Below are positions 11,925 to 63,062 of a stretch of 64,000 nucleotides of DNA, in pieces (position 1 is the first letter of the stretch; every line of letters starts with the position of its first letter). The translations under genes and the position numbers were made by a program. Source of the DNA: Hericium rajendrae (taxonomy: Eukaryota > Basidiomycota > Agaricomycetes > Russulales > Hericiaceae). The stretch covers positions 310,001-374,000 of the forward strand of contig JAVRDV010000017.1 of NCBI GenBank assembly GCA_033439255.1. Direction: 5' to 3'. The notes beneath the pieces are model-generated. The model saw only the letters and a program-made list of their open reading frames with translations. It did no database searches and was not told the origin of the DNA.

Positions 11925-11932
11925 CAGCTGGT
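11925..11932 (+). repeat. Target-site duplication of KDZ-A, left
   Basis: CAGCTGGT here is repeated exactly at 37,304-37,311, immediately outside the inverted termini. An 8-bp duplication is the length also seen for KDZ-B. Confidence 0.75.
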
Positions 11933-12395
11933 TTTCTTGATCCATCCCACAAGTTGTAAGGGATCATGGATCGATCTGACCCATGAGTTGTAGGGGGGTT
12001 ATAGAGGGCATAGAAATGGAATCCGATACCTTATACATGTAGATACTACTACCATCTGATAGGAATCCAATCCAATCCAATCCGAGTTTGTGCAGAAAAA
12101 TATCAGGCATATGAGGTTAGGACAACCATCAGATTAATCCATTCAAATCCGATGTAATTTGAGTCAATCCTAACTACATACTTAGCATATCGGTTTCAAT
12201 CCAATCCAATCCCATCCTTCCCTCAAATCTCAATCCCATGCTCAAATCTCAATCCCATGCTCAAATACATAAACCATAAACAATCCATCCGATCCCATCC
12301 ATGTAGCAATCCGATGGCATGTAATCTTATCCATCACTCTCATCTATCTACTGGTGTCGAAATCCTATCCGATCTCATCCATCTAGATCTAGGGA
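11933..12395 (+). repeat. KDZ-A left terminal inverted repeat
   Basis: Matches the reverse complement of about 36,845-37,303. Alignment is near perfect from CCATCCCACAAGTTG (11,942) through the CCAATCCAATCC short repeats to about 12,320 and weaker to about 12,395. The outermost 9-17 bases differ in length between the ends. The inner, weaker part corresponds to the C-terminal coding region of the transposase on the other side. Confidence 0.75.
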
Positions 12396-12679
12396 TAATC
12401 AGTAATCGAATCTGTCATAATCCTAGCAGATATATAGGCAATTTAAGTAATACAAACCGATGAATAATCCCACTATCCAATCGGATAACGACTCCTGGCA
12501 TTTGCATCGACATACACATATGCACATATGGAACATACTACATGGCAGGAAGGCACAGTGATATACTCCTTGAGCCGTCATCGCTCTGTATCACGAACTT
12601 TACAAGCTATCAAGCCCTTTTTGCATTCCTAGGAAGAGCATTTGTCAGACACAACTCAATGTCATTGGCTAAAGTACCA

Positions 12680-14971
12680 CTTACCGTGTTGACCGGCGAG
12701 GAGTAGAGACCTTTCCACTTTTCGTGCCCTTCTTCTCTGCAGCACCCGTTCGAGGTTGTTTCGAGGTTGTCATTCTGCTAATGAAGCATGTCAATCATCA
12801 TAGGTCCGAAAATCTGCGAAAGAGGATACATACGTGTTTGAAGTCTTCGTCGATAATCGTGTCCTCTTTGCAGGTGGTGCGGGTTCAATATCCTGGACAT
12901 CTTTCCCCTTACGCTTTGCAGCCCTTGTACTTGTCGAAGGCCCACTGGGTGATGCGGCAGCTGCTTTAGCTTGACGCCTGGTAGAGGTGCTGACATCCTT
13001 GCTGGGGCGAGTGGCAGTCTTCACGGTCTTCGGGCGTTGAACGCTAGGTTGATGGATGTGGTCGCTCCCTTCATCGTCTTCCTCTTCCTCTTCGTCACCG
13101 TCGGCAGCGTCATCTTCCTCCCCACTGCCCTGGTCACCCTGTACTTCATCGTCACCCCCTTCGCTGTCCTTGTTCTCTGCCCCCTCATCCTCGCCTTCCC
13201 CCCGCTCATCCGTGATCAGGTCCTCGGTCTGATTGCACGAGGAGTCTAGCAAACCATCCACTTCTTCCAACTCTTCCGACTGGTTGTTGGTCGTAGTCCC
13301 TGCGATCTCTTCACTTGCAGACCGTCCACGTCGGGCACGAGGTCCACGTCGCACCGTAGGTGGCGAGGAAGCTGCCAGTTTCGTCCCAGTCTTGCCAAGA
13401 GGCAGAGGCTCCTGCGTTGTAGGTTGAACACGTGACTGAGCAGTCACTGGTGGCAGGGAGCATGCTGATGCATTGACAGGGCGAGGGCGTGGTGGTGAGA
13501 CGTTGCGTGGTGGTGAGCTTCCCATATCATGCCTATCACCCCCACCCAGGCCGAGCAGCTGACGACCCTCGTTCTCAATAAGGAACGTGATAGGAAATGG
13601 CTCGTCGGTGGGGGCACCTTGGACAAGGTCAGCCAACTCAAATACGTCGCGCGGAATCATTTCAGAGGGCTGGATATTCTTGAAATGACGAAAGATCGCC
13701 GTATTTGCTAGAAAGGCCGCCCGGTGGTCGTTGATGAGTGTCCAAGGCACGTTCTTGGACACGGATGGGATTCCGCAACGTGCTGTGAGAAGTATCAGAA
13801 TCTATAGACAACCCTCATGATGAAAAAACATACCCCATAACCCTATAAGCACCTCCTCCATGACCTTAGCTAGATCCTTAGAAGTGATTGTGTCCATGTC
13901 TAACACAGGAAGGATAGGACGGCCACTCTCATCGAATTGAACCGTGTGCGACGACACAGCTTCTTGATCTTCAACATGGTGGACTAGCGACACTGTGAAC
14001 ATAATGCCTGGAACATGACCGATGTACGTACCTGGAAGGACCTCCTCCGCCCATTCTTTGAACACTTTTCGAAATCCATTCTTGTAATTGTCGATCTTGT
14101 CCACCCCGAAAGCGGTCGGGCCGTCGTGGACCGAGGTACTGCCGAACGTATTCATCAGAGTTGCACACTTGAAACGAACTGAGCACACGTACTGGAAAGT
14201 TTTCACCCTTCCGTCGGCATTCCTATACGCGCCCTGAACGAAGAAAGCTACATCGCCGTGTTGGTTCCAATCGTAACCGCCCAACGAGGCGAGCGTGGTT
14301 GCGACAGCTGTAAGGATGTCATCTTGGTTGCTATCACACGAAGAAAACTGTTAATCAGTGTAATAACAAAGAATGAATATGCTACTTACTCATAGATATG
14401 TTTGACCGGCGGAGGGTTGTTGTGCTCCTCGTTCTTTACTGCGGCCTTTGCATGCCATTCTTCTTTTTCCGCAGCTGTAAGTGCATCCCATTGCTCCTTG
14501 CTCACTTGCCTCCATAACTTCAGGTTGTCATGTTCTCCGGTCGCAAGGCGCACGTTCTGCATTTCCTCGCGGATGTGGACGGCTTCTGCAATGCGAAAAA
14601 GGAACTCGCCATTCGTGGCTTTCGGTTTCTTCGGGGCCTTCATTGCGATCGGCTTGGTTTTGCCAGCTTTTGAGGCTTGATTGTAGAACCAGCATTTGAG
14701 TTTCTGTGCGATATAGTGTCATGTCATATCAACATAGATACAACTGAAACGCGTACCTCCAGGACTTCTGTACGGCTTGAGTTCGCCATGAACTTCGTCT
14801 GAAACTGGTCCAGGACGTTAGCTTGCACCCATTGAGACTTGGCGCCCTTCGCAAGTTCGCCATCTTGCAACGCAAGAAAATCGGGGAGGTACTTCTGTAG
14901 CCAGGCCTTATGCTCCGTGGTAAGGGTCTCAGCCTTGACTACACTGCTTTTGTCGACGCTGGTTGAAACCA
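12680..14971 (-). CDS. KDZ-A accessory protein with WFxN motif
   Basis: Reading leftwards: exon 1 (MVSTSVDK..., ATG at 14,971) has a helical segment WLQKYLPDFLALQDGEL...W. A GT-AG intron follows. Exon 2 has KLKCWFYNQASK and then KLWRQVSKEQWDALTAAEKEEW, reminiscent of an HMG-box or of a homeodomain-like recognition helix followed by a helix pair. Exon 3 contains GGYDWNQHGDVAFF and VDKIDNYKNGF. Exon 4 (12,791-13,765) is long with an extended acidic tract and basic clusters. A last small basic exon probably follows after an intron at about 12,730-12,790. The architecture parallels the KDZ-B gene at 31,281-34,220, which starts YLEGFLPEF...W and RIKVWFNNHTRG. I infer a nuclear DNA-binding partner of the transposase. 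I recognise no named family. Confidence 0.65.
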
Positions 14972-15129
14972 TGGCGAGATAGGATTGGCTGAGGGACTTA
15001 TGGGGGTGTGGGAGGGCGAAAGAGAAGCGGACACAGTACCGCCGTCCGATCTTTATATCTAAAACCATCGGGTTATTGTTCGCAGTCAATGCCCAAATCG
15101 ATTGGAAATACCATCGCTTTCTATTCAAT

Positions 15130-15480
15130 AAGTTTGCGTCAGTGGCACTGTCAATGCGTCCATGAGGCGGGTGGTGCTGTGGACTACTATCTCGCAGATA
15201 ATTCAGTCTACACGAGGCAAGACAACAGTCACGCACCTTTGTCTGTTCATCGTGAATGCTGATCCGTTCAATAAGGTATCTGTCAGTGACGCTAACGGTT
15301 ATCGGTTCACACACGAGGCGGCGTAGCGCTGTGGACAGTCCGATAGATAAGTATCAGTCCACACGAGGCAGAACAATGACCGCGCACCTTTGTCCGAAGA
15401 TCCGTTCGTCGTGAACGTCAATCCGTCCATGGTGCGCTTCAGTGGATCCGAGATAACAATGGCTAGGAACGCTGATGGGT
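15130..15480 (-). promoter_or_regulatory. Duplicated promoter-like segment
   Basis: Upstream of the accessory gene start at 14,971, two direct copies of a roughly 165-bp unit contain CACGAGGCA...ACAA...CGCACCTTTGTC and ATCCGTTC words. Copy one is about 15,150-15,300 and copy two about 15,315-15,450. Their position suggests a duplicated promoter or activator region. No TATA box is obvious. Confidence 0.4.
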
Positions 15481-15698
15481 GAAACCCGTTCCAATCTCCG
15501 AGACCCAATCCTCAATCCCAATCAATCCATGGATGTCTTGAGGTTGCACGGGACAAAGGGTATGATACATCTGCAAATCTGCCAGACATAACACATTCAG
15601 TTTGAGTAAGCCACTCTGGGGGGAGATGCACCGATCATCATGTAATGTAAAGACTTTTCAAACATGCACAGATGTAAACGAAACAATACAGGATTTTA

Positions 15699-16990
15699 CT
15701 AATGACGCAATACTCTATCCAACGGAGACGATAGTAAAGGTGGGGACGACGATCTGAAATCGGGCAGGGTGCGCGAACCGCGTGCACCCAGATCCCGGGG
15801 CAATCCTTCATCCAGTACATGCTGTGTGTGCTCTGCCCAATCAATCATGGTCTTGACACCGCGGGCACGCAAGAGCACTAAAGCGCCATCGCGCACCGAC
15901 AGAGGTGTATCCCAGCGCAGGGAAAGCCACTGATGCTTGGTTTCCGCATAGCGTTCCACCGGTCCGTCTAGGCCAATCTGCCCCACAGCCATCTTGTGAT
16001 CATCCAAAACAAGACGTTTCCCCCGTCGGGCAGAGACGGCGACATATGAGGGGGGATGGAGATCCTAAGGATGGGTCAGTGACATAGACAGAATGAGATA
16101 ATGCGGTAAACGAACGGAATACCATGCCATGATGGTCACAATGACGTTGTTGTCGAGATCGTTCGGGGCGTCGACAACACGACTGGACCCACTCTCCATG
16201 TCGCGAGGGGCCGTAACTCTTGACTTGTTTGACCGGGTTCCCTCAGCACGAGAAACCTCGTCTTCGTTATCAGAACCAGGAATCGAGTTGTCCTCCAGCG
16301 TAGCATGACCAGAATGGCATCTTTGTGCTAGCTTTGCACGCGTAGCAGACAGCGTATCGCAGAATTCAATGTCAGAGTCACTTTCAATGTCCTGCGTGGA
16401 TGAGGAAGGCCCAGTAGCCGTTGAGCGTGCGTTTCCGGGAGTAGCAGCTCTCTCCAGGGAGGGTTGAATCTGATTCCGCGCCTTGGGCTCTAGCTCGGCT
16501 CTGATGAGCCACCATGACGTGAGTGGTTCACTCCGGAGAATGAGATCTGGTGATAGACGAGGCGACAGCCATTGAAAGCATCGTCGTTCGCCGCTACCTT
16601 CGACGGGTATGCACTGCGAAAAAGTAAGCAAAGGCGAGAAAAGAGCTGGGCTGGACTTACAATTTGGTACCAACGTCCCGCATCCATAATATCTCCTCCT
16701 CCCACCGACATGTAAGGGCCAGTGATTCTGTAGCCCGCATGGGTGTGTCTAGTTCTATCTACTGGAGGCTGCTTGGGAGCCAATTGCTCGAGGCCAGCGC
16801 GAATTCGAAGCGCATTCTGTTTCCGCTTCTCGGTCTTGGTGCCTATCAAGGTCGAATCCGCGTCGGTTTTGGGAGTCCTTGGGCCCTTGAGACGCGCCGC
16901 TTTGCGTGCACTTGCCAAGGGCGTACGCGCATAAGGGGTCGATGGAGGAGCAAGAGAAGACTTAGTATGCGTAGAGGGAGTCCTGGGCAT
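15699..16990 (-). CDS. KDZ-A accessory protein 2, unknown
   Basis: The ATG at 16,990 opens a basic, Pro/Thr-rich N-terminus (MPRTPSTHTK...) with SARKAARLKGPRTPK, followed by EKRKQNALRIRAGLEQL and GYRITGPYMSVGGGD...RWYQI. After a short intron (about 16,611-16,660) a second exon carries SWWLIRAELEP and a long acidic Ser-rich region. After another intron the last exon holds a compact domain (VGQIGLDGPVE, WLSLRWDTPLSVRDGALVLLRARG). The stop is near 15,699. The basic start suggests nuclear location. It lies in the same orientation as the flanking genes within KDZ-A and is therefore probably mobilised with it. I do not recognise the family. Confidence 0.6.
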
Positions 16991-17252
16991 ATCGGTGCAA
17001 CAGATTTCATTCCAAGCTCATTCAGCGTTTATATAACTGTGATTCTCGTGTAGATCATCTGAGGTGGCGTGCAGTCAGTGAAACTTATTGTCCTGTGGGG
17101 CTGAAATGACTTAGCTTTGACTTGGCTTGTGCCCACCGGATAGAAAGAACATGCCACACGAACAAAGGATTATCATGACAAATACAGATTAAGACGGCAA
17201 TGACGACAGGGTCCAAGCAAATGCGACGAAAAGTAACAAGGATAATAATGGG

Positions 17253-19313
17253 TTACTTGGAACCAGAGCGATGACGGAGACAGCGAATCCCTTGCGTAGG
17301 AGGTGCAGGAAGTAAAGGTGGAGGGAGATAACCTAGATTCTTAATGAAACTTTGGATGTAGAACGTCAGTAACTGTCGCTCCACGCTCAAGAACGTCTTC
17401 TCGTCCAGATTTTCCAAGCGCACAATCCGCATATAAATCACCCTCTGCCATTTCTCCAGATCAAATCCAGGCCAATACTGCAAGAAACCCCGCATTGCCC
17501 CAACCCACTTTCTGCGCCTGTCCCAATCGAGTTCATACAGAGCCTTGCTACAGTCATCTGTCCATGCAAGGAAAATCTTGACAGAGGATGTCACGGCACT
17601 ATGGTCCGCAGATGACAGATTGACATATTTGGTGTGGATTAACTCGAGATCTGCTTTGATGGTCTGGTGGACAAGATGATACAACAATGCGTAGCGGATG
17701 TCAGGGTCATTTGCGGCCTCATTGTCCATGGCGCAGCCACAATCCAAGGTCGAGATCACTAGATCGGGATCTGCAAGGACAGCCTGGTTATCGGGTCCGA
17801 AGATGGTGCTGCCGCCGTATACCCAAAAACGTTCATCGTCATACTGAGGGTCTACAGCCGGATCGAACTTGTCACCAAGAACAGGCCATTGTAACTTCCA
17901 GTACGCGTGGCCGAGAACACGTTTCCAGTCGCGCGTGTCGAGCCCAGGAGTGCCGCGAACAGAGAATTTGTCAAGGGCATGCCGTAGAAGGAGAGCGTGA
18001 CGAAAAACGTGGTTTGATTGTCGGGGGAGACACCCCAAAAGAGATGGAAGGGAGGGACCTTGAAGAGACGTGAGGTGCCCGCATCTGCGATAGTGGTAGG
18101 ATCCACCATATACATCGCATTGCGATAGATCTCGACCGGACGACACATCCATGAGAGCGGGTCAGATGTGTTGTACCAGCGCCGCCATTCGTTATGTTTG
18201 ATGTCCGGCTTAGGATGTCGTGACTGCGCTGAAGACATCAATAAGCAACAGAAAGCGTCAAGACTTGTAAAAACATACCGATGGACGTTCGCTCTCGCTT
18301 GTTGAGAACTCCCTTATATTCATCCGTTGGGTTGAATTGGTCATCACGAGGAGCGCATCCCCTCGCTGCAGACTCAAAATTCCGTGCGTCCTTCACGAGG
18401 GGAGGGTACCACCAATGAGGTCCATTATGCTTGAACGTTGCTTCAGGCCATGGAGCCAACTTGCATCGAACGTCGCGTGGAGCCATTTGGACTATTCTCG
18501 CCGAGTCTAGTATCCATTCATTGGCCTTGAGAATGATATAAGCGGATACACCCAGCTTGGCCAAACCAAGGTACACTACAAGGTCTGGTGCATAAACACC
18601 TCTGGTTTTACCGCGGCGCTCCCGAACAGTGAGACTCTCCATCCGTATAGATTCCAGCACTTGGCAGTCGGACCACCACTCCTCGAAGGCAACAAGCTCC
18701 AGAAGAGCGTGCTGCAGGTGACGGAAAACCACAACAAATTCGCGCCAGGCTTGGACACCGTTCTTGAGCATCTCATAGCAATCTAGAGCTCGCGAGCATG
18801 CATTGTGGGGCAGCGCGATGTGTTCCATCCCTGCTGTAGCCTGGACGATGAGAAAGATCCGCCTCGTCATTTCGCTGGCCCATTCCCATTCTTGACAAAA
18901 GATAGCGAGGACGGAGGATTCGGCAACGTGTTTTTGATGATCTTCAGGGTGTGAGATCCACAGCTCTTTAGAAACGGCCCGACCCAAAACTGCATGATGT
19001 TCGGCTGAATTAAGAAATACGACAGGGATATAGGCTAGGTAGGGGGCCGACACATCGAACACTTGAGGTAGGCGCGTCCACTCATATCCTCCCCATAACC
19101 CATCTAGCTGAAGTTGAGGTGTGGCGGACGTGTCCAAGGGCACGGGGATCATACGTGTATTTGCGGCGGCAATAACTTCATTGGATGATTGCAGGGGTGT
19201 CCAGGACGAGTACGGAAAGGAAAAGACCTACGAAAACAAAGTTGTATTATATGTTATATCCATGCTACCAAATGGAATAGGGAACGCACCTTAGCAGGAC
19301 GAGAAGAGGCCAT
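17253..19313 (-). CDS. KDZ-A accessory protein 3, unknown
   Basis: The ATG at 19,313 (MASSRPAK) is followed by an intron (about 19,225-19,290) and then a long open region with a tryptophan-rich helical composition (GGYEWTRLPQVFD, LWISHPEDHQKH, EWEWASEMTRR). A later exon has RHPKPDIKHNEWRRWYNTSDP, then FWGVSPDNQTTFFV, RDWKRVLGHAYWKLQWPVLG, STLDCGCAMDNEAAND and a C-terminal helical domain ending at 17,253. The estimated length exceeds 600 residues. No catalytic motif stands out. It is transcribed divergently from the transposase across the duplicated promoter region at 19.3-20.4 kb, which would allow co-expression. I have seen similar long hypothetical proteins in Agaricomycetes but know no function. 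Confidence 0.65.
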
Positions 19314-19320
19314 TGTCCAG

Positions 19321-20420
19321 GTGGAAATGACAGGGGTACGGAAACCAAAGGGGTAACGAAACGAGTATGTAAAAAAGGTGCATCCACCCCTACACAGCGT
19401 ACAGCAAGTTGTGCTCACGAATACCGCAGAGGGTTGGAGCGACAGGTCTGCTATACGCCAGGGCTTCAACACGAAAGAAAAAAAAGCCGAGGCCAAGATA
19501 TTAGGCCGGGAGAGTGGGGTTGTGCCAATCAGCAGATCCTTGCGGCGGACAAATGTTGCCTGACCGCAAGGGAGTCCACTGAAATGGCAAAGAGTCAGGT
19601 CCGGGGAAGGAATGGGAACAAAACACGACGTGAGTCTGAAAAAGAAGTCAAACGGAAATGGAGAGAGTGAGATAAATATGCTTACCGGTACTGTACCTTG
19701 AGAGAGACTCGCAGCTCTCGCTCGAGTATGCTGGTTGCCATGAAGGCAGAGTTGGTGTGGTTTGGTTGGGAGGCGAAGGCGTGAGAATGGTGACATAAGC
19801 AACTAGCAAGCCACTGTCCGGGCAGTTGCGGGTTGGTTGTGGGACTGTCAGTTCCGTCAGTGCGTGTACGTGTCAACGACTTCATCAATTGCCAGGAGCT
19901 CGTGCGCAGACGATCGTTGTGCTCGATACAGGTGAGTATTGATTTTTTTTTTGCTTCTGACTGGCATATTAGGTACACTGTTTGCTCCCCACCCGCTCCC
20001 CGGACCCGACTCTTCGCCATTTCAGTGGACTCCCTTGCGGTCAGGCAACGTTTGTCCGCTGCAAGGATCTGCTAATTGGCACAACCCCACTCTCCCGGCC
20101 TAATATCTTGGCTTCGGCTTTTTTTTTCTTTTCATGTTGAAGCCCTGGCGTATAGCAGACCTGTCGCTCCAACCCTCCGCGGTATTCGTGAGCACGACTT
20201 GCTGTACGCCGTGTAGGGGTGGATGCACTTTTTTACATACTCGTTTCGTTACCCCTTTGGTTTCATATTCCTTTTGCTTGACTACACTCCACCCGGATTC
20301 GACTCTACGTCATTTCAGTGGACTCCCTTGTGGTCAGGCAATGTCTGTCCGCCGCGAGGATTTGCTGATTGGCACAACCCCGTACTCCCGGCCTAATATC
20401 TTGGTCTCGGCTTTTTTGCT
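19321..20420. promoter_or_regulatory. Inverted duplicated divergent promoter region
   Basis: The segment 19,321-19,580 recurs inverted at about 20,015-20,270 with high identity, including GGAGTCCACTGAAATG and TACTCGTTTCG words and the poly-A/T bridge. A shorter third copy, in the orientation of the second, lies at 20,305-20,415. One copy abuts the start of accessory gene 3 and the others precede the transposase. The simplest reading is that one promoter was copied so that both divergent genes share the same control sequence. Confidence 0.55.
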
Positions 20421-23042
20421 TCGTTGAAGATCCTGCCGCCACTAGAGCACTCGCCCGAAAAGCCCAAGTGACTGGCGGTCGTATGAAGGTATGTCTCATC
20501 TCGATTTCGATTGTGCTGTACTAAATCATTGTTACTAAGTCCACAAGTCACCGAAAATGACCGAGATCTGCGGGTCCACATGCCATAGCCACAACCGTTG
20601 TCGCGTCGCGTCGCGTCAAGTCAAGTCGCGTCAAATCAAGTTGCGTCACCTCGTTGTGGCCACTCTCGCTGTGGCCACATAATAATGGTGCAATAGCTAG
20701 GTGGCGGACGCATTGACATACGGGTATTGTTGCGTTTTCCTCGCTTTTCCATCCCGCCAGGATCTCTATCTATTCCCATATTATAAAATGCCTGTACTGT
20801 GCTGTGTTGCAGCCCCTTCCCATCCTATTGCAATATCTCACTTTCGAGCTGCTTTCCGCATTCTATCCCGATGTCTAAATGACCCCGTGTGACTGGTTGC
20901 ATTGATAGCGACTCGGATGAAGACAACGAAATCGAGATTGGGCTGAACTTCAGTCGCAATCACGGCGCCCGAACGACCTACCATCAGGTCGTATCCCCCA
21001 GAAAGCAGAGAGTTACGAAGACAATGCCTGCGCCAGCGATTCCGGCACCTGACTTCTTGGAGAGCTCGTCGAAAAAGGAGTCAAAGCGGCCGCAGGTACG
21101 TCCATCGCCATTCGTTCCGTCATAAAAGCCTGACTCCATGGATCAGGGCGCGAGCGTGTTGATGAAGGCGTTCATTGACAGCATGCCCCGCATTCAGGAC
21201 ACGATCATTGGTCTCGAATTTGACCCGGCTGTGGAAGAGGACTGCCTCTGTCACCGGGACGCAGCTGCAGCAGTCTATCGATGCCTTGACTGTTGGCAGT
21301 GCCGGCCATCTTGCGGACAATGCATCAAAGCAAGTCACCGACATCATCCGTTCCACAGAATTCAGAAGTGGAATGGTCATTTTTTCGATCGGTCTTCGCT
21401 GAACGACGTAGGGTTTATCATTAGCCTGGGGCATCATGGCCAGCGCTGTCCGAACCGTGCCTTGAACTCTGTAGGCCGTTCTATGGTGGTCGTAGATGTG
21501 GGGGGTATTCATCAGTCCACAATTGAGTTTTGTTGCTGCCGTGATGCGCCTTCAGAACCTTTTCAACTATTGCGGCACCGTCTGTTTCCTGCTACCATGG
21601 ATCTACCTCAGACGGCCTTCACCTTCCATGTCCTGGACGATTTCCACCTCCACACGCTTGCTTCAAAGAAGTCGGTGTACGATCATTATGCTGCGTTGCA
21701 ACGGCACACTGACAATGTATTCCCACAGAACGTTCCGGTAAGATACAACAATTAGAGATTGGCCTTTCTAGTTCCTGACCCGTTGTTAGGATCGTCGTCG
21801 GGAGTTTCAGCGGGTGGGGCGCGTTTGGCGCGCTCTTGCCATGATTCGCCGGGCAGGGCAAGCCCACGGGATGGATGATGTTTTGACATTTCGACGGCGC
21901 AGCTCGTACGCAGTTAGATGTCCTGCATGCATTGAGCCTGGTGTCAACGTGTCCTTGGATGAGTTAGAGAAGATCTCACCCGAAGATATGTTCGTATCTC
22001 ATATTTGCATGTATGGACTGTGCTAATTTGTCTCTTGCGCAGGCATAGGTATACCCTATTTCTGTCTGCCGATGGTAACTTCAGGCTACAACGCAAGATC
22101 AAGGTCGATGATCCCGATGACGTGGAGTTGCTCAAAGGCAACGCATACTTCGTGGAGCGGAGCGGATATAAAGATTACCTGAAAAAAATGGGAATAGCAA
22201 CCGAGGATGAAGTCAGTCTAATGACCATGTTCCAAACTCGTAACACTGACATATGTACAGAGATCTACTTGTGCCCGGCTCAATGTTGTGCGATTACAAA
22301 ACCTTCTCAAGTTCAAACATACAACCGTGAGTGGGGTGGATGCCATCCAGTGCGCGCGGCATGGTTTGTTCTGCCCTCAGGGCATGGTTGACTTGCAGAA
22401 AGGTGAAAGGTACGAGGTCCGCGTCACTGAGATCAGATTCTGGATGCTAATATTCTCGCGCCGCAGATTCTGCAATACTGACTATGCACTTATGTCTGCG
22501 TTGACTGAGTCCACACACGTTCCCTATATCAAATTCAGCTACGACATATTTTGCCAGTACGAAGTAAAGTTCCAGAGTCGAGTGGAAACACATTTCCCCG
22601 AAATGAAGGACATCGCCGCTCGAATCAAAGGGCTGGTGCCCAAGCTGCATATCATGGGACACATCGAAGACTGTCAGCTGCAATACTCATTCAATACCAC
22701 ACCCCATGTCAGCAGGACATTTGGCGAGACGATTGAAACAGCGTGGGCAGAAGGAAACCAGACTGCGGGAAGCACAAAAGAGATGAACGCAGGTCATCGT
22801 CATGATATTTTAGATGATTTTCATGGCTATTGGAATTGGCAGAAGGTCATCTCGATGAGTGAGTCTTGACACCATAATAATGGATACATATTAAATAGAA
22901 TTTATATGACAGCTCGCTTGCTTTTTAAACATCATACAAATGCGGTTGCCATGTATCGTCGGGCAAGTAGTGCGTTTGACGCACTGTGTGCACGACATGG
23001 ACCAGATTTAATTGCTGATTGGTCCGCCATGGACTGCAAGCC

Positions 23043-23050
23043 GGTCGTCG
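23043..23050 (+). repeat. Target-site duplication of KDZ-B, left
   Basis: GGTCGTCG is repeated exactly at 35,521-35,528. Removing the element and one copy restores an uninterrupted KDZ-A reading frame (CKPVVVNGKVTSIY), which strongly supports both the boundaries and the 8-bp length. Confidence 0.9.
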
Positions 23051-23849
23051 AGCTGGGGTGGTCCTAGTAATCACTATATTGCTGGAATAGCAAGGCACAT
23101 GTAGTGATCGTATCAATTGAATGGTGATGTTACTATATTCATTACATTGCAGAAAATATAGTGATCATCTTATGCTCATGGTTTCTTAAAATGTAGTGAT
23201 GCTCCGAGTTACTGTATCACTGGCTTCCAAGGAATATAGTAATCATTTCATAGGGAGGGTCAGTGTATCACTATATTATGCAGGAAATCACTATATACTA
23301 TGTATCTTGCAATACCACTAAGATAGTGATCAACATAGTCATACAAGGCTTAGACATTATAGTAGTAGTTACACTTTGAAGAATATAGTGATCATTTTAT
23401 ACTCATGGTTTTTTGGAATGTAGTGATGCTCCGAGTTACTGTATTACTAGCTTCCAAGGAATATAGTAATCATTCTATAGAGAGGGTCAGTGTATCACTA
23501 TATCATGCAGAGAATCACTATATACTATATATCTTGCAATGCCACTTAGATAGTGATCAATGCAGTCATAAGACTTAGGCATTGTAGTAGTATATCATTG
23601 CTCCAGGAAATATAGTAATGCTGCATTAGGGAGGCTATCAATGATTATATTTGCTGGAAACATCACTATGCAGCTAATTTGTCTGGGTAACGGCCAAATT
23701 CGGGTATTTCCGAAGCCGCCTTTGGCATTGCGACAGGCACACCCCCGATTAGCCTGATCTCTGATGAGATCTGATCCTCCGATCGGGCAATAATACCAGT
23801 ATTTGCTTCCCCACTGCTGCTCCTCCGTTCACCGATCAATACTAGCTGG
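23051..23849 (+). repeat. KDZ-B left terminal inverted repeat
   Basis: Begins with the AGCTGGGGTGGTCCTAG sequence and is filled with ATAGTGATC, ATCACTATA and GTAGTGATG words, apparently in two tandem blocks of about 290 bp (GCTCCGAGTTACTGTAT recurs in both). These words are good candidates for transposase binding sites. The inner GC-richer part ends at CTAGCTGG. Confidence 0.9.
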
Positions 23850-24420: not shown

Positions 24421-24422
24421 CT

Positions 24423-27400: not shown

Positions 27401-28431
27401 GCTTCCCTCCGTTATCCGTACTAACCCATGATAAAAATCGTACGCATTCATCTTGCCTTGCAATGTAAGCGCGTGAAAAAGCTTGAGAGCGCGAATGGTG
27501 ATCGCGGTTTGAGGACGATCGAGCGTTGCCGGCCACCAGCTTGCACGCAAGAACTGAACATATAGCATATGGGATCCGATCCTGCCGCATTCGCAGAAGC
27601 GGACACAGACAGTATGGAGACCCGTGATATCGAGGATGACCAGATTGTTTGAAGTGTCATGGGGATGGGGGCATGGCAGGCCATCGTGACCAAGCTGTAT
27701 CTCTAAGCCCGCCTCGAGAAGGGTGTATGCTTCGAAGCATATACCATTCCAACGCTACAAGGACGTCAGGAACGTGTCACAAATCGTTGCGGCCATGCGT
27801 ACCTGTGTCCGATGCAGAGGATCCCTAGCGTGTCGCTCGCACATACAGGTTGCGCATGAGAGCTGCGATGATGTGCAGTCTATACACTTCATATCCGCCG
27901 GCCTCTCATCACATATTGCACATTGGGCCGGATAGACTTGATCCCCAAGGCCTTCATGCCGAAGGAGCTCATCGAGGATAGTATCCCTAGCCTTGGCAAA
28001 CTCTTGCAGATGGTGGATCTACGGTCATCCATGAGCTATATGCCGAAACCGTTTCGCCTCTCAGTTGAGCTTACCCGTCTCTTTCGCTTCTTTCTGGACC
28101 GCCGCCCTCCCTGCGTATCCGTCAGGTCAGGCACAAGAATCACCTCCGCCTCGGGTTGAAAATCTTGCGAGCCCTGGAAATCCTCCTGAGTCGGTGCGTC
28201 TTCTGGAATAGCTGACGACATTGCATCGTCAGAGGAGGGCGGGGGTAGCGTATGAGCGAAGAGAGCTTGATCGACTTCGGAGAGGGCAATCTTCGAGACC
28301 CGCATCTTCGGCTTCGTACGACATCGAGGTACTGCTATGCTGACATGCCGACTGTGAGTTGCTGAGGCACCATTACCGTCATCGTCGCTGAACTCAAGCG
28401 CTTGGACCTTGCGTTTGCGCTTCCCTCCCAT
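24423..28431 (-). CDS. KDZ-B transposase
   Basis: Minus strand, about ten exons with short GT-AG introns. The start MGGKRKRKVQ at 28,431 gives a basic then acidic N-terminus. The next exon has the cysteine cluster CAICDERPADMKCIDC...CATCMCERH (about 27,800-27,910). After it come CECGRIG, the PATLDRPQTAITIRAL block typical of KDZ proteins, and CPACPHPGVNLP. The presumed catalytic residues are in AVDANFKLK (about 27,050), VISYDIACQY (about 26,600) and YGEGIEANW (about 26,400). A C-terminal coiled region with a Lys-rich run and EVPWIWRVL follows, and the last exon ends in an acidic tail at 24,423. All recognisable motifs are present and no interruption is seen outside introns. The role is cut-and-paste (or related) transposition of KDZ-B. 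Confidence 0.88.
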
Positions 28432-28559
28432 GAAAAACTAGCAAGTGCAGATGAAGAGCGGAGAACTCAAAATGAATGGATTACGAATTGATTACAAGGC
28501 ATACAATCACGTGACAGGATGCCCAACAAATACGATACATCAATTCCATGACGATATGC

Positions 28560-29245
28560 TGCGTGCTCGTGGTTCAAAACCCATAGATTCCTTGGAAGAC
28601 CTTCTTTCGTATACTAAGGTGACCATAATGAGTGTGAGCACAGGTGTGCGTAAGTGAAATTATCGTACCCACAACCCAGGAAGACCAACGCACGGTCGCC
28701 AATAGCTTGGAAACGCGTCTCGGGCCCTTGAGAGATAAGTTCGATTTCTTGATGAAGGCCAGCCACGAGTCGGCGCAGCGCGTGGACCGATCGAACCATC
28801 TCGGATGCACAGGAGGTAGTCCCAGACTTAGTGATGTCACGGGCAACCGAAAGGTGTGCCTCGAGAAGGCGCTGCAGCGCTTGCTGATATCGTTGAACAC
28901 CGATAAATGGTGCTGTTGCCTCCAGAACTAGCTCTCGGTACAGGTCATTACACTGTTGGAGCAGGTCAGACTCGTCCTTGGCCATCTGAGTGGTGCGATC
29001 GGGGTCGATACGGCGGTGCGAATGGATCATCTGATTATTGTACTCACTATCGCAGAGTGAGAGCACCTACAAAGACAGCACAGACGGACTTACAGGCTCG
29101 AACCAGATATACGCGATCTTCGTATTCGCATCTCCATCTCCCGCTCATGTTTGCTGACTTTCCGACGCCCTGTTCGCTTGACATAGGCATAATCGCGCTG
29201 ATACTCCTGCCGTGTCGCTTGATGCCTATACAAAACTAGTTATTT
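28560..29245 (-). CDS. Small basic/coiled protein in KDZ-B
   Basis: The minus-strand coding part begins in a basic segment (YVKRTGRRKVSKHEREMEMRIRRS, about 29,100-29,200) and continues after a possible intron with a helical region (QMAKDESDLLQQCNDLYRELVLEATAP...QALQRLLEAHLSVARDI, 28,620-29,060). A short C-terminal exon follows an intron whose donor is at about 28,675. The exact start and the first intron are uncertain because the obvious donor-acceptor pair would give an intron under 40 bp. It lies immediately upstream of the transposase in the same direction, about 130 bp away. It has no recognised family and could be a chaperone or DNA-binding partner. Confidence 0.5.
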
Positions 29246-30100
29246 CGTTGTATTATGCTGAGCATAACGTTACATACCGTTTATAATATGTTGAGTGGGA
29301 GGGAGACATATGTTGTCTGGAAGTGAATGAAGGGCGGGAACAGGCCAGTGTACTGGACAATTCAAGTCGCGTCGCGTCAAACTCTCAGCCACTACACTCT
29401 GCGCACCACTGAGAAACAATATGCATCTGTTATATTTATTCAAGCCTCTATCCCTATTCAATTTGAACGAGAGCATTGGGGCATAGTTCAACCATCTTCA
29501 CTTTTTTTTCTGTGTTTTTTGGACATTGATATGATGTTAAACGCCATTGCTCTCGTGTTTTTCGAGATGACATCAGCAACATTAGTCAGTCTGCAATGCT
29601 ACTGCTAAACTCGAAGCTGTTTCACGGCGAGACTAGAAGGACAACTAGTCCGAATACTGATAGGTAACGTTGCGAGATCGCTTCTCTTATACCTGAGAAA
29701 GGGTCTGAAGAACTCTCTAACGGTGATCTGACAAGGCCGCCCTCGCAGCGGAGCGGAGGAGATCAGGCGGGCCGCCACGGGGCGGGACGCAGAGGGATCG
29801 GGCGCAGCGGGACGGGGCACAACAGGACGGGGCACGGGGCACGGTGGGGCGGGGCACAGCGGGGCACAACGAGTGTCATAATGTGTACTACCAACCGGGC
29901 TTAACATCGCCGAATGTGCGAAAGTGTAAAGTACTCAGACAATAGCTCCAAACAATGCATAGATTGGGGTGCATATTTGAAACTGAAGGGGCGTGAACGG
30001 GGCATGTACTCATACTCAAAAGTCTATCGTAATCAATAACACTGTCAAAATTTAAGAAAGGGTGGGTAACTGCCGCAGCAATGCCGAAAAGATCAGTTGT
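29246..30100. other. KDZ-B intergenic region with GC minisatellite
   Basis: No gene. A short run AAGTCGCGTCGCGTC near 29,365 also occurs upstream of the KDZ-A transposase (about 20,600-20,640), so it may be a shared promoter element. From 29,755 to 29,872 there is a GC-rich tandem repeat of GGGACGGGGCAC-type units. Confidence 0.45.
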
Positions 30101-31062
30101 ATTGCATTTGATACTTGAACCATGCAGCCGCGTCGTCGATCGAGTTGGAAAATTTGTAAACTCCGATCTTGTTGCGAATGATTTCTTCCACAAGCTCTGG
30201 CCTTGGGTAAATAAAAAACGTGAGAGTAGCAAATGAGACGGTAGAAAGGGACTCACGATGGTCGGTAATAGATACCCGCTTGGTCCGCATATCCACTGTA
30301 TACGGCCAGGAACTCTTCGGGGCGAGAAGGTCCCGCGTTAGCACCAGCATCTGGCTGGACTCCTTGGCGACGGGAGGGAATCGGATGGGTATCGAGTTGC
30401 GGGGGGGGCAGCCGTTGTTTTCGATCGCCGCGCTGGTTGTCATTATGCTTGACCGCGGTGTGAGAGCGTGCCTTTGGGCGGCGAACTGACTTGGCGAAAG
30501 CGCTCCGCAAGCCCTGTCAAATGTGGTCTATGTGCACGGTCTGAATCTAGGCGTGAGGCCACATACCTCAAATGTAATCTTTACTTTCAGATCACCGTTC
30601 GACAGAGCACGGCCCGGTACCACAACCGTCAAGGCTGGGTCTTCCTTGGAGACCGTAATGCGCTGCTCGTCGCCGTCGCCGTCGCCGGAGCTAATCGAGA
30701 TTACCTCGATATCCTTGGCCTTGCCCTTGTTGTTGACGACGTGGCCGATGGCACCCGCGTGGCCATTTCCTTGGTCGTTGGCGTCGTTGTCGTTACTGAC
30801 TTGGCCAGGTGTGTCGTCTGGCATGGACTCGTCCTCAGACGTGTCACTTGCGATTTCGATGACAATGTCGTTCGAAGTGGGAGCTGAGGTTGCATTGTGA
30901 ATAGTAAGAAGCAACGGATGAAACAAAATACATACGAGGTGCCGTCAGACGGTCCAAGGACTCTAAGAGGTTCATGTATATTTGAGGGACGAGAGGTGGT
31001 CTGTAATGCGCAGCGCAGCGAGAGGGAGGGGAGCGATGAGGAAGTCGAGCGATAATTTTCAT
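30101..31062 (-). CDS. KDZ-B protein with RNase-H-N/viroplasmin-like end
   Basis: The ATG at about 31,062 (MKIIARLPH) starts exon 1. Three GT-AG introns follow (about 30,895-30,945, 30,515-30,568 and 30,200-30,255). The middle is acidic and disordered (SDTSEDESMPDD, ISISSGDGDGDEQR). The C-terminal 60 residues read FLAVYSGYADQAGIYYRPS...PELVEEIIRNKIGVYKFSNSIDDAAAWFKYQMQY. That pattern (Y-x-V-x-x-G-x-x-x-G-I-Y ... Y-K-F-x-S-x-x-x-A-x-x-F) resembles the small nucleic-acid-binding domain at the N-terminus of eukaryotic RNase H1 and in viroplasmin. The resemblance is by eye only. The gene is divergent from the accessory gene at 31,281 across a roughly 220-bp shared promoter. Confidence 0.6.
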
Positions 31063-31280
31063 AGTCGGATTAGGCAGCGTGAGCACGTGCGGTATCGTGC
31101 GGTGTCGTGCGGCCGATTCCCCGAACTGTTCTGCAGTACTATGTAGTGAAGCATCCAGAGATTGTAGTGATCCTCTTGTTTTTGAAATTGGCACCTTTCT
31201 AAATTGAGAATACGACGCGACTTTTCACCAGCGCCGTTTCCCGCTTCTCTGTCTGCGCACAACCTATCCACCTATCCCAC

Positions 31281-34220
31281 CATGAGGGCATGGGCAGACG
31301 AAATACAGATCAAATACCTGGAGGGTTTCCTTCCCGAATTCAAGAAACGGCAGGACAAGGGATCCACTAGGAAGATATGGCCAGTGATTTATGCAGGCTG
31401 GTTCAGACAGTGGCCTGACGATGGGAAGGTGGACATTCGGAAGGTACGTCATTAGAATTATTGACAGACAAACGATACTAGTAGAATGACACATACACAG
31501 CGTATAAAAGTCTGGTTTAACAACCATACGCGCGGGTCCGGCGACGGTATCAAACGGGGTGCACCGGGTCGCCTCCTCAACCTGACTGGCAACGGGAGAC
31601 GAAAACTCGCAGCCTTCCAAGTCTACCAGACTTTGTACTGGAAGGAAAAACTGTCAGAGAAGGTCAACACAGCATGGGAAGAGTATCTGAAAAACAAACC
31701 TCAAGATGAGAAAACACAGGCGCGCGTTGCTTTCCAGAATCGGCTATGTATAGATTGGTATGAAAACGAGACGGAAGAGGTGAAAGCAGCCGTCGAGAAG
31801 GCGCAGACGGATCCTTTGGCCGACGAAATGATGGCTGTTGACGAAGTCGTTGAAGGCGCCGAAGTCGTCGAAGTCGACAAGGAGCAGCAGGCGGAGAGCG
31901 AGCGGAAACGGAAGTTACAAGAGTATGAAAAGTCCGTCGCAAGTGTCCTTCACGATTCTGCGCAACTAACACCACTTCTTCTAGGAACATCGAGGCCTTA
32001 CAGCTTACCCTAGTAACGGTCGTGCGTGAGATTTATGCCCTAACCGGTTGGGTGTGCGTGATATCAGCCGGCGGGCCTCGACCTAGTCAGAAGGGTCAGC
32101 TTCAAACTATTGGGTGCGTAAATGTTGGTATAACGATGACGTCACGCTCGCTCACCTTCACAACATTCGACAGACTCGGTACGGATGCAGAGATCGGCAC
32201 ATTCAAGGATAACTGTAAAGAGTACCGTGAGGTCGAGAAGTTATTCCTGGCATATCTGCAGCGACTCTTTCGTGAGTGATTCGGCCAGTTCCATTGACAT
32301 ATGGCTTACCTCCGATGGACAGCCCCAGAGGTACAACAAAAGTGGTCCCTCGGCGATGTAATGAAGCTTCTGGAGAAGGAGACCGGCACCTCTTCATCAT
32401 CCTTATCCATGGACAAGGGAGACAGTAATACACAGCCCACGTCTGATCAGCAAACGACTACTACTTCGCCCGAGCGAGATGTAGAAGAGACGCGCACCAA
32501 GGCCAAAACGGACAGAACAAAGACAAAAGGAAAGAAAAAGTCTCGCGCTAGACATGGAGAGTCAGAGGATGATGCCACGGGTAGCGAGGAGGAAACTGAC
32601 TGGCAAACCGAAACCTCGGGCTCCGATTCCTCCGATTCAAATTCGGGACCCTACAGCCCGAAAACCAAGAACCTAACGCCATACGAACAAGAGCGCGCCG
32701 ACAACATAGCGAAGCATGACGAATGGCTGAAGGATCTTGAGCTTCAGTTTGCCAGTCGCCAGCTGGTCACGGGTCTGTCGGAGGCGGGTCTATCGAAGGT
32801 GTCGGATAAGGGGAAGAAAGAGAAGAAGCGGGGCAAGGAGAAGCGGAAGCGGCGTAAGAAGAAGGACACCGGCGAGGACACGCCGCCTGCTCAACCAACC
32901 AGAGTTCAGCCTGCGAGAACGACGCGAAGCAAAGAACCATCAGTCGTAGTTGAAGAACAGTAAGTTCAATCACTTACATTTTCTGGATGTCGCTGATCAG
33001 AATGTATTCTTTAGCGAGCCAAGCCAATCTAGCCGCATGAGAACTGTTCAGGATGCGACACTACACGAAAACGGGACTCAACAAGGGAGCCCGAAGACAA
33101 CCATACCAGCGCAAAGCGAGGACTCGGGTCGGCAAGATGGGCTCCAAGGATTTCATGCATCCGAAGGGATTCAGTCGGTGGCGCGGGACTCCTCGGATGA
33201 GCAGCATGTCTCGGACAAACGCGTCACATCCACAAACAAGGGACATACAACTTTGACTGAGACTCCAGCTAGACCGATAGAAAGGGAGACTCACCAAGGC
33301 CAGACCGAACCTGGATCTGACAAAGATACTGCCCCCAGCGAGAAGCCGGCAGCTGCAACAAGTCCACCTGTGGCCAGCGAAGAGACGACAACTCCGCAGG
33401 TGGAAGAAGCTCGCCAGACGAAGCCCGCTGAAGCACCCGTTCAACAGGATGCTTCGAGGCAGACCCTCGCCCGTCCCAGTGGAAGCGAGATGGGAGGCGG
33501 AGAAGCCAGTAGCATGAATGCGTCTCCCGGCCCGCCCATTCCTGACCCCGTTGAAGTTCGTCTTCCGAGCGACCCAGAGTGGTTTGGGGAAACGATCGAG
33601 TTCTTGAAGACGGGTCCATCGTCTGCCGAATGGAGACGCATCCTCAGCTTCTGGGTGACCGTAGAGCGTGCTTTGAAGCACCCGGCTGCAACAGTGAGTA
33701 TTGTGAATTGCTGAGCAAATTGACACTTACCCATTTTCAGGATCGGTCGAACTGGCTCGATTCGACCGACAGACCTGCGCAGATCTTCGACTGGATGAGG
33801 GCACGTCGTGACTACGAAAACATACCCAAGTTAGGTGCGGTATCGCAGTTCGGACAGAAGTGGCGAAAGTGGTGGACAAACAACCAATCAAGCTGGCGCG
33901 TAAGCAGCGAGATGGCGTGGCCCTTGAATCGTGATGTGGACGACAGTGAGAGATGGGAAAGTTTGAAAAAGGGTGGTAAGAACGGCCTTCTGATGTTCCT
34001 GATTTCCCTGGTATGGTGGCATCGGAGGGCTACGAGCGATGGGGATAAGGCGGCGCTGAGCTCGGTGGTGGAAGACGTCGAGTTTGTGTTTGAGAAGGTC
34101 GTGGGTTCATTGGAGGCTACAGGGAAAGATGGTGAGACAGACATAAAACGCACGAAGAAACCGAAAAGGAAAGCGAACGCCTCTGCCAGTCGAGAGCCTC
34201 CGTCGAAAAGATTACGGTAA
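31281..34220 (+). CDS. KDZ-B accessory protein with WFxN motif
   Basis: The ATG at 31,281 (MRAWADEIQIKYLEGFLPEF...). Exon 2 has RIKVWFNNHTRG, like a homeodomain recognition helix, followed by AFQVYQTLYWKEKLSEKVNTAWEEYL. Exons 3-4 (about 31,985-32,270) carry NIEALQLTLVTVVREIYALTGW. A long charged region with Lys-rich clusters and acidic tracts spans 32,340-33,540. The C-terminal domain (33,560-34,200) has the blocks WFGETIEFLK...W..IL.FWV.VERAL, FGQKWRKWWTNNQSSW, WPLNRD and KNGLLMFLISLVWWH, then ends in a basic tail. The same C-terminal blocks occur in the gene at 10.2-11.1 kb. Frames are open in all exons. I infer a nuclear DNA-binding partner of the transposase. Confidence 0.7.
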
Positions 34221-34720
34221 GCAATCAACAATCAACCCTTCACCATGATCAACTGGTGCTGATTGATTACAGTACAAGATCACGAACCTGAGGATGCACT
34301 CTGCCAGCATTATTTACTATGTACTGTCACCCACTGTCACCCACATGTAGAATACCCCGCGTGAATGTCGAGATATTCGAGTTGGCGATGCTGCATCAAC
34401 GGAAGCAGATTCTGAATGCGAATAATTACGAAGTCATGGTCCGCTGGCGAATCGAACTGAAAGATGATGCTGCGTAATGCCGCTGCTGCCTCTGAAGATG
34501 AATTCCATGTAGTGCATAGAGATCGTGAACACAGAACTGTGTAAGTGGGGAACGGAGGCAAATTGCACGATCTCGATGCCGAGACCGGCATCAGCGGATC
34601 AGATCATATCGGGTATCAAACCCACGAGTGCGCATCTGTGTACATTGCTGGCTATAAGCCCTACGCTGGCTAAAGCAAATATCATACAACACTTTTGAGC
34701 AATTCAATCCACTTCCGTAA
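34221..34720. other. KDZ-B right subterminal spacer
   Basis: No gene. About 0.5 kb between the stop of the accessory gene and the inner edge of the right inverted terminus. Two copies of TGTCACCCAC near 34,325-34,345 are the only repeat I notice. Confidence 0.45.
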
Positions 34721-35520
34721 CCAGCTAGCATTGACCGGTGAACGGAGGAGCAGCGGCGGGGGAGCGAATACTGGTATTATTGCCCGATCGGAGGATCAGA
34801 TCTCATCAGAGATCGGGCTAATCGGGGGTGTGCCTGCCGCAATGCCAAAGGCGGCTTCGGAAATACCCGAATTTGGCCGTTACCCGGACAAATTAGCTGC
34901 ATAGTGATGTTTCCAGCAAATATAATCATTGATAGCCTCCCTAATGCAGCATTACTATATTTCCTGGAGCAATGATATACTACTACAATGCCTAAGTCTT
35001 ATGACTGCATTGATCACTATCTAAGTGGCATTGCAAGATATATAGTATATAGTGATTCTCTGCATGATATAGTGATACACTGACCCTCTCTATAGAATGA
35101 TTACTATATTCCTTGGAAGCTAGTAATACAGTAACTCGGAGCATCACTACATTCCAAAAAACCATGAGCATAAAATAATCACTATATTCTTCAAAGTGTA
35201 ACTACTACTATAATGTCTAAGCCTTGTATGACTATGTTGATCACTATCTTAGTGGTATTGCAAGATACATAGTATATAGTGATTTCCTGCATAATATAGT
35301 GATACACTGACCCTCCCTATGAAATGATTACTATATTCCTTGGAAGCCAGTGATACAGTAACTCGGAGCATCACTACATTTTAAGAAACCATGAGCATAA
35401 GATGATCACTATATTTTCTGCAATGTAATGAATATAGTAACATCACCATTCAATTGATACGATCACTACATGTGCCTTGCTATTCCAGCAATATAGTGAT
35501 TACTAGGACCACCTCAGTTG
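34721..35520 (-). repeat. KDZ-B right terminal inverted repeat
   Basis: Reverse complement of 23,051-23,849 with only scattered substitutions, ending CTAGGACCACCTCAGTTG directly before the GGTCGTCG duplication. By eye the two arms are well over 95 percent identical. Confidence 0.9.
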
Positions 35521-35528
35521 GGTCGTCG
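35521..35528 (+). repeat. Target-site duplication of KDZ-B, right
   Basis: Exact copy of GGTCGTCG at 23,043-23,050. Confidence 0.9.
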
Positions 35529-36844
35529 TGAATGGAAAAGTAACAAGCATTTATGTGTCCAAGGTGAAACACGGTGGGTCCATGTTACCCGTCAATGCGC
35601 AATGAAGTGACCCTTATACCTGTTCAGGACCACCAACACAGTTCTCCAAACTTCAGGAACTACTTCAAGATGAGACTGTGCAGATGTTGAGCAAGCAGGG
35701 CACTGCGGGATGGGTTTCTGTTATCAATGACGGGTTGCGTATGGAGGCAGAACAGTGAGTGTATCGGTCATGCGGGTATTTTCCTGTTTCTAATGCTTTG
35801 CAGATCTCGTCTTCAGACATTGGCATCTATCAAAGGACGTACGCCTGGGGAACAGGAACGTTTGGAAGTTGGTCGTCTCAAATTTCGGAATGAGCTTGAT
35901 ACATGGCGGTCACGTCAATTAATGTTATTTCCTGCTCTCCACCGCATGCTCGTTGTTGACGAAGACGACGAGCCCGAAAACATCAAGCTACTGCTGCCAT
36001 CATCATTCAACGAACCTATGAGGAAGGCCCAGGGCTTGGATGATGTGGTTGTGATAGAGCGCGGGCTGCGGATTGGTCAAGCCCATGACGTCCTTCGAGA
36101 TGTCCGGCATGCCATCAAGATGTTCAACTATAACCTGAAGTTCAAGAAAAGCAACATCTTCAATCAGGGGCCGACAACACGAGCTCAGGCTTTTCTTCGT
36201 GACCTGAAACGTGACCAAGTAAGCGTGGCAGATAAGTATCGTCGTGCTCGTGCGGCTTTGGTACGTTTGGGTATGGCCGAAGATGATCACGTACTGCAGC
36301 CTTTAAAGAACGAGGACCTTTGGATGAAGGACATTACTCAACCTCGACGGACAGGTAAGTGCAATGTCCATTATAAGTCACTTGTCCTGATCATATACCC
36401 AGGGGATGCGGGAAAGCAAGATCCTTGGTTTTGGACAGTGGTTGGTCCATCCGCACTGACTGAGGAGGAGCAAGCAGAGTGGAGTATGGAAAGTACGTAT
36501 AATTTTCTTTTGTTTCACTCTATATATTGACTTGAACAGGTGAACGTGTGAAGTGGTTCCGCGACCGGGCAGATTGCCACCGCTGGCGAGAAGAGATCGA
36601 CATAACCGATCAGGAGTTTACCAACACTAAACGCTCCCATACGGCAATGAGCGTGGCCTGGAGTGCTTTGGCATCGAAGGCGAAGGAGCATGGTGCAGCA
36701 GCATACGCGCACAAGCACAGCTCAATGTATGGGGAATTGGCTAAAGATGCAGCTTCGTTCCATACGAGTGCTCTTGATAAGGCAAAAGAACTGAAGGTAC
36801 GTGTACTGCTAGGATTACAATGGATTCGATGACCGATTCCTTAT

Positions 36845-37303
36845 GCATAGGTGAATGAGACCGAAGAGGATTTCAATACTGGTGGATAGATAAGACTTAA
36901 GGTGGATTGTGTATGGATAAGATTACATGCCATCGGATTGCTACATGGATCGGGTCGGATGGATTGTTTATGGTTTATGTATCTGAGCATGGGATTGAGA
37001 TTTGAGGGAAGGATGGGATTGGATTGGATTGAAACCGATATGCTAAGTATGTAGTTAGGATTGACTCAAATTACATCGGATTTGAATGGATTAATCTGAT
37101 GGTTGTCCTAACCTCATATGCCTGATATTTTTCTGCACAAACTCGGATTGGATTGGATTGGATTCCTATCAGATGGTAGTAGTATCTACATGTATAAGGT
37201 ATCAGATTCCATTTCTATGCCCTCTATAACCCCCCTACAACTCATGGGTCAGATCGATCCATAGCCCCTTACAACTTATGGGATGGCTTAATCCTATGAT
37301 ATG
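36845..37303 (-). repeat. KDZ-A right terminal inverted repeat
   Basis: Partner of 11,933-12,395. It begins inside the last exon of the KDZ-A transposase, so the terminus and the C-terminal codons overlap. It runs through GGATTGGATTGGATT words to GGGATGG at 37,286 and a 17-bp outer tail. Confidence 0.75.
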
Positions 37304-37311
37304 CAGCTGGT
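37304..37311 (+). repeat. Target-site duplication of KDZ-A, right
   Basis: Exact copy of CAGCTGGT at 11,925-11,932. Confidence 0.75.
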
Positions 37312-37559
37312 GATACAACAGAATGAATGGCGACCAGAAGTATGCAGAGAATCTCCAGACATGGCTGCTTGAAGATGTTACAGGCATGGGGTACGGTCTT
37401 TTGGATAAGGTTGTAGCATTGCTCGTATTCTGATACAGAACGAGGAGCCTCTCATCACCAGCATCACCTCTCTATTGATGTAGAGCATCCATACAAGCAG
37501 TGGTGAGTTCATGGCTGACCAACCAATGTAGGTATCACAGTGTGGCATGAATTAGCAGT

Positions 37560-39550: not shown

Positions 39551-39599
39551 GCATCCTATTGGATCCTCACTAGGTTCTGAGGCTCTTTCACTCCCGCCA

Positions 39600-47160: not shown

Positions 47161-47215
47161 ACGAGTGACCTGTCATGCATCACCTATGGTCTGCGTGGCA
47201 CCGTGCACTGCATGA

Positions 47216-47890
<675 letters not shown>

Positions 47891-49500: not shown

Positions 49501-49504
49501 CAGT

Positions 49505-63060: not shown

Positions 63061-63062
63061 TC

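Follow-up and report, generated by a model that had tools for sequence, protein, structure and literature searches.

The closest described systems for the locus reported here, two nested KDZ transposons (KDZ-B inside KDZ-A) in a 64,000-nucleotide stretch of the Hericium rajendrae genome (C17:310001-374000, C17 being contig JAVRDV010000017.1; hereafter the window), are other fungal transposons and one chromosomal inversion of Drosophila. Kyakuja elements of Agaricomycetes, as described for two Laccaria families, make 7-bp target duplications, end in 5'-CA..TG-3', have no terminal inverted repeats, and carry TET/JBP (Kojima, 2025; PMC12730594). For KDZ1-KDZ3 of Cryptococcus neoformans, the published account gives lengths of 9-11 kb, terminal inverted repeats of 139-241 bp, a CxC1 domain, and target duplications of 8 bp (KDZ1) or 4-8 bp (KDZ2 and KDZ3) (PMC12810828). 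As set out for the Galileo inversion 2z3 of Drosophila buzzatii, the criteria for an inversion caused by transposon copies are their opposite orientation, exchanged target duplications, and chimeric copies (PMC2775673). The papers examined offer little on where large KDZ elements end and how long their duplications are, and in the limited literature searched we recognized no report of exchanged duplications of KDZ elements.

KDZ-A and KDZ-B both have the combination of PF18758 and a CxC cysteine cluster that characterizes the KDZ superfamily, with Pfam E-values of 4.7e-42 (KDZ) and 3.5e-35 (CxC2) for KDZ-A, and 2.7e-39 and 2.7e-36, respectively, for KDZ-B. They resemble the Kyakuja elements of PMC12730594 in their KDZ transposase and 7-bp duplications. 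The 5'-CA..TG-3' termini of those elements recur in KDZ-A, in the observed ends of its family, and among KDZ-B's relatives on C2; GA..TG is read instead in KDZ-B and in its relative on C17. Unlike the two Laccaria families as described there, however, both elements have inverted arms, about 0.4 kb long in KDZ-A and 0.8 kb in KDZ-B, and none of the 46 TET/JBP matches in the genome (six-frame search, introns ignored) falls within C17:321.9-347.3 kb. With the C. neoformans elements they share a large size, terminal inverted repeats, and a KDZ transposase, but have CxC2 where those are described with CxC1 and with duplications of 8 or 4-8 bp (PMC12810828). As in the account of Galileo 2z3, there are two inverted copies, exchanged 7-bp duplications, and nested elements inside, though Galileo belongs to the P superfamily in another host, its non-inverted chromosome was sequenced, and its copies are chimeric (PMC2775673). 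The element class and the mechanism are already known, and the KDZ-A/KDZ-B nest adds a new member.

We turn first to the flanks of KDZ-A. In the assembly (46.8 Mb in 19 contigs), which holds at least 172 matches to the KDZ domain, a search with the KDZ-A right end retrieved 20 places. Seven of these are KDZ-A-type ends, namely both ends of the three full copies and a lone end on C9, and the remaining 13 are weaker ends with about 69-75% identity. The only full copies are KDZ-A itself (copy A, C17:321916-347312; about 12.9 kb without KDZ-B), A2 (C17:381804-394717; 12,914 bp), and A3 (C6, ~1227.8-1240.7 kb; 12,904 bp), the latter two each 98-99% identical to KDZ-A. Copies A and A2 stand in opposite orientation on C17, 34.5 kb apart. 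The heptamers flanking KDZ-A, GGCAAGA and ATACAAC, agree with each other at 1/7 positions, as do those flanking A2 (1/7), whereas the crosswise pairs are perfect, with the left of A matching the right of A2 (GGCAAGA, 7/7) and the left of A2 matching the right of A (ATACAAC, 7/7). As an independent sign, once the A2-left and A-right flanks are joined, a 214-bp tandem repeat (75.7%) continues through the junction; as A2 is now arranged, this repeat breaks off at the junction, having run for 98 bp, and the present arrangement of KDZ-A lacks it. Judged from the sequence, the crosswise flanks and the joined tandem repeat are together the mark left when inverted copies recombine and the segment between them is inverted. 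Reading frames over the joined flanks, which we did not use as evidence, reach 171 amino acids at one crosswise join and 93-98 amino acids in a present arrangement.

The duplication length was read from a heptamer table with seven same-element pairs of the KDZ-A family and five of the KDZ-B family, plus cross comparisons. Four of the seven KDZ-A-family pairs match at 7/7 (A3, TGTTGCC; C3, CGAAGCG; C4, GTTGACC; C14, CGTACAT). The 11 pairs that we accepted leave out the same-element pairs of A and A2 and that on C7 (0/7); they comprise six of the KDZ-A family, including the two crosswise A/A2 pairs, and five of the KDZ-B family. Searches of the genome with the left end of KDZ-B (131- and 1370-base queries) matched only its own two arms, and its end structure was accordingly taken from relatives; by its ends, KDZ-B is present only at this place in the assembly. 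Within its family, four of five pairs match at 7/7, these being KDZ-B itself (GGTCGTC on both sides) and three near-identical relatives on C2 (GGTTGTT, CTCCCAT, and GTTCTAT) with the ends CAACTGTAGTGG and CAGCCGTGGTGG, and the relative on C17 matches at 6/7 (GCGAGAC/GCGAGGC). None of the 20 off-partner comparisons in this family exceeds 5/7. Taken over the 11 accepted pairs, the heptamers match at 7/7 in ten, as in the Kyakuja pattern, and at 6/7 in one. An eighth base matches in just six of the 11 on the outer side and two on the inner side, and 8 bp is therefore not the rule; nor do these pairs show the 8-bp duplication of Zisupton and Dileera, although KDZ-B taken by itself would be compatible with that length. 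As far as the flanking sequences indicate, a target duplication of 7 bp fits both families.

For KDZ-B there is a competing possibility, which we regard as unlikely, that it makes an 8-bp duplication, GGTCGTCG, with only the KDZ-A family making 7 bp. In its favor, and as a point against a common 7-bp rule, the sequence of KDZ-B is compatible with either length, its flanks and the empty sites described below agreeing equally well with 8 bp. However, the three C2 relatives match at 7/7 with just two of three agreeing at the outer eighth base, and the C17 relative has the same GAGCTG start as KDZ-B and a different base after the right heptamer, because of which the eighth base, G, was assigned to the element. 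Furthermore, the two KDZ-B ends are symmetric only if this G is so counted. The duplication of KDZ-B is thus most likely GGTCGTC, that is, 7 rather than 8 bp.

Some other members of these families can be described here. Three nearly identical KDZ-B-like elements share a 57-kb stretch at C2:2249951-2306706, and every one of them has a separate 7-bp duplication. On C14 (~1133020-1198610), KDZ-A-family ends with a perfect CGTACAT duplication are about 65 kb apart, and further KDZ and TET matches between them make this a much larger nest. The KDZ-A-family ends at C7:591161-608341, with heptamers at 0/7, mark another rearranged or composite copy. Lastly, the A3 left flank and the right flank of the element at C10:48k carry the same heptamer, TGTTGCC, which hints at a target preference.

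The course of events that we hold to be probable is the following. KDZ-A and its sister A2 would have inserted in opposite orientation into one chromosome, each insertion duplicating 7 bp of its target, GGCAAGA in one case and ATACAAC in the other. The inverted copies would then have undergone ectopic recombination, which flipped the intervening segment and left each copy with one heptamer from each site. KDZ-B (12.5 kb, of another KDZ family) entered the transposase gene of KDZ-A once the latter was in place, whether before or after the flip. Judging from the domain, both elements were presumably mobilized by their own KDZ transposases. The crossover itself, and its occurrence in the chromosome rather than in the assembly, are what we infer from these data. 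The segment thought to be inverted includes a PLU-1-like frame at 50208-50861 (Pfam), a DDE_1 (PF03184) frame at 40660-41784 that represents another transposon-type gene, and a Yae1_N match slightly below the Pfam cut-off at 60669-61859.

Several observations weigh against this account. Among the other 75 different-element end comparisons, none exceeds 5/7 save one, in which the left flank of A3 and the right flank at the unrelated end C10:48k agree at 7/7; heptamers are accordingly not fully independent. For a chance match, a rate near 1 in 75 comparisons is a better estimate than 4^-7, and both crosswise pairs still fit. The second crosswise join has no tandem repeat across its junction. The C7 element, at 0/7 and with no partner, indicates that unmatched flanks also arise for other reasons, and the putative inversion here rests on orientation (opposite strands of C17) and exchanged duplications, not on chimeric copies. 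Finally, the analysis covered a single assembly, in which the contig could have been flipped by error. The chromosome would then be uninverted, each copy would have its own matching heptamers, and the flip would lie between near-identical inverted copies of 12.9 kb. That the segment is bounded by exactly two inverted long repeats speaks for such an error. On the other hand, the 111 aligned sites at which A and A2 differ should be enough for accurate long reads to distinguish them, and KDZ-B should anchor one copy, just 1.8 kb of repeat lying between it and its right flank. On balance, we think an assembly flip improbable.

Much less likely still is an origin of the crosswise heptamers in aberrant, hybrid-end transposition in place of homologous recombination. 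Events of this kind are discussed for other DNA transposons in the Galileo study (PMC2775673), but each heptamer occurs here twice, once per copy, as a simple exchange predicts, and from the treatment in that study hybrid transposition would usually be expected to bring in a third target sequence or to leave a deletion.

The ends of KDZ-A from which these heptamers were read are those common to A, A2, and A3. The element starts with CAGGGACGTCAGCTGG and finishes in ..GCAGCTGGTG; read from the outside in, the three left ends have CAGGGACGTCAGCTGG in common and the three right ends CACCAGCTGCATATC. Among the 13 weaker ends there are likewise two types, CAGGGACGTCAGTTGG and CACCTTATGCATATC, which correspond to these and have the same end points as KDZ-A but no CAGCTGGT. 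A preliminary description of this DNA had assigned 8-bp duplications to both elements, GGTCGTCG for KDZ-B and CAGCTGGT for KDZ-A, with KDZ-A ending at 11933 and 37303. Both 8-mers are present where it placed them, the former probably being one base too long as a duplication. The latter, which occurs five times in the window against 2.9 expected, was rejected as a target duplication, as it is internal to the matching ends of all three full copies and falls inside the element when the seven KDZ-A-type ends are aligned, and KDZ-A therefore spans 11916 to 37312. It mimics a direct repeat: CAGCTG is a palindrome, identical to its reverse complement, which makes an inverted end repeat appear direct. 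An insertion of KDZ-A with CAGCTGGT as its duplication, suggested by the motif's presence on both sides, has a negligible chance of being correct, given that A2 and A3, which occupy other sites on C17 and C6, have the motif in the same position within their ends, that the common sequence extends beyond it, by 9 bases at the left end and by 1 at the right, and that outside these ends A3 is flanked by a matching heptamer of its own. The preliminary description had named copies with different end points as grounds for refuting it, and A2 and A3 are such copies.

Inverted and direct repeats of ~120-270 bp (87-95%) separate the two divergent genes of KDZ-A, at window positions 19341-20417, and are also found in A2 and A3. 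Immediately to the right of KDZ-A, a tandem array with units of about 119 bp occupies 37643-38021.

KDZ-B is inserted within the transposase gene of KDZ-A, which it breaks downstream of the CxC2 and KDZ frames, and it is the later arrival there. An empty site with a single GGTCGTCG is found in both other full KDZ-A copies, A2 and A3, and from this it follows that KDZ-B entered after KDZ-A at this place. Both elements have KDZ and CxC2 domains and long inverted end repeats. The nesting of two KDZ transposons had been recognized in the preliminary description, together with the later arrival of KDZ-B and the expectation of such an empty site, and all of this holds. Its full-length structures, at 12.9 and 12.5 kb, were about right and the order of arrival is borne out, although the KDZ-A ends were wrong. 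The same applies in part to the continuous KDZ-A frame proposed after removal of KDZ-B. Across the empty site, A2 and A3 do read CKPVVVNGKVTS[I/V]Y as proposed, but a TGA follows in both copies, 31 residues into the translated stretch, and an intron probably begins at VTSIY, with GT directly after VNGK. The arms of KDZ-B (about 0.8 kb) are 98.5% identical, their 12 mismatches being transitions.

The arms of KDZ-A (about 0.4 kb) are 93% identical. We rejected this value for dating the insertion, because the main differences that set the left arm apart from the right, consisting of several indels and substitutions, are repeated in all three full copies and so predate them; by exception, the A3 right arm reads like a left arm at a few sites. 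Among the full copies, A and A2 are the closest pair, with 111 differences, while A3 differs from them at 179 and 183 sites, respectively. Of the 53 changes private to A, 52 are C-to-T or G-to-A, as are 54 of the 57 private to A2, and neither set includes a transversion. A3 has 126 private changes of mixed kind, 89 of them C-to-T or G-to-A, 30 in the reverse direction, and 7 transversions, in part because changes common to A and A2 are counted there. Of the C-to-T or G-to-A changes, 40/52 in A and 47/54 in A2 are at CpG, against a background of 23% of C sites. In pattern, the private changes of A and A2 would fit the decay of methylated CpG.

In the compared KDZ segment, KDZ-A and KDZ-B are 45% identical, and each is 27-34% identical to the five sampled TET-neighboring KDZ segments of the genome; this comparison and tree cover 19 KDZ segments of this genome only, a small part of all its matches. 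The second gene of KDZ-A lies within 25 kb of a listed KDZ place at 31 of its 37 matching places, on the opposite strand in 14 and on the same strand in 17. Of the same-strand cases, 16 are 3.4-4.0 kb from the KDZ match and one 6.2 kb, distant families included. All 37 places were compared with 36 hand-picked KDZ places, and the six negatives are therefore weak. The gene families of the second genes of KDZ-A and KDZ-B travel with different KDZ families. The coordinates of all features are listed in Table 1.

Table 1. Features of the KDZ-A/KDZ-B nest and its surroundings, in window positions unless a contig is named.
Feature	Position	Strand	Basis or remark
KDZ-A, with KDZ-B inside	11916..37312	+	Ends common to A, A2, and A3
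KDZ-A left inverted arm	11942..12337	+	Window self-comparison
KDZ-A right inverted arm	36909..37286	-	Window self-comparison
KDZ-A transposase	21126..22869	+	Pfam; CxC2 (21126-21755 frame), KDZ (22225-22869 frame)
KDZ-A second gene	18238..19227	-	No Pfam match; 37 matching places in genome
Further KDZ-A frame	13802..14350	-	No Pfam match; 19 matching places
CAGCTGGT within left end	11925..11932		Found in left ends of A, A2, and A3
CAGCTGGT within right end	37304..37311		Found in right ends of A, A2, and A3
GGCAAGA heptamer, left of KDZ-A	11909..11915		Partner right of A2 (C17:381804 end), 7/7
ATACAAC heptamer, right of KDZ-A	37313..37319		Partner left of A2 (C17:394717 end), 7/7
Putatively inverted segment, window part	37313..64000		Runs on to C17:381803, 34.5 kb in all
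KDZ-B	23050..35520 (7-bp reading; 12,471 bp) or 23051-35520 (8-bp reading)	- (transposase strand)	Empty sites in A2 and A3; ends of relatives
KDZ-B left inverted arm	23053..23849	+	Window self-comparison
KDZ-B right inverted arm	34721..35517	-	Window self-comparison
KDZ-B transposase	26252..27754	-	Pfam; KDZ (26252-26785 frame), CxC2 (27278-27754 frame)
KDZ-B second gene	33555..34220	+	No Pfam match; 33 matching places
GGTCGTC target duplication, left copy	23043..23049		Empty sites, heptamer table
GGTCGTC target duplication, right copy	35521..35527		Empty sites, heptamer table

Here, several copies taken together with natural empty sites fix the ends and the duplication length of two KDZ families, and a palindromic end motif is seen to be easily mistaken for a target duplication. 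The nature of the private changes cautions against dating these insertions by arm divergence or by a plain clock. Crosswise flanks record a rearrangement between two copies; here they involve A2, which lies beyond the window, and would be invisible without the rest of the contig. We suggest, if only tentatively, that a lineage of KDZ elements with CxC2, long arms, 7-bp duplications, and no TET/JBP may have inverted 34.5 kb of this genome with its host genes, the PLU-1-like frame included, and recently enough for the inversion to be polymorphic.

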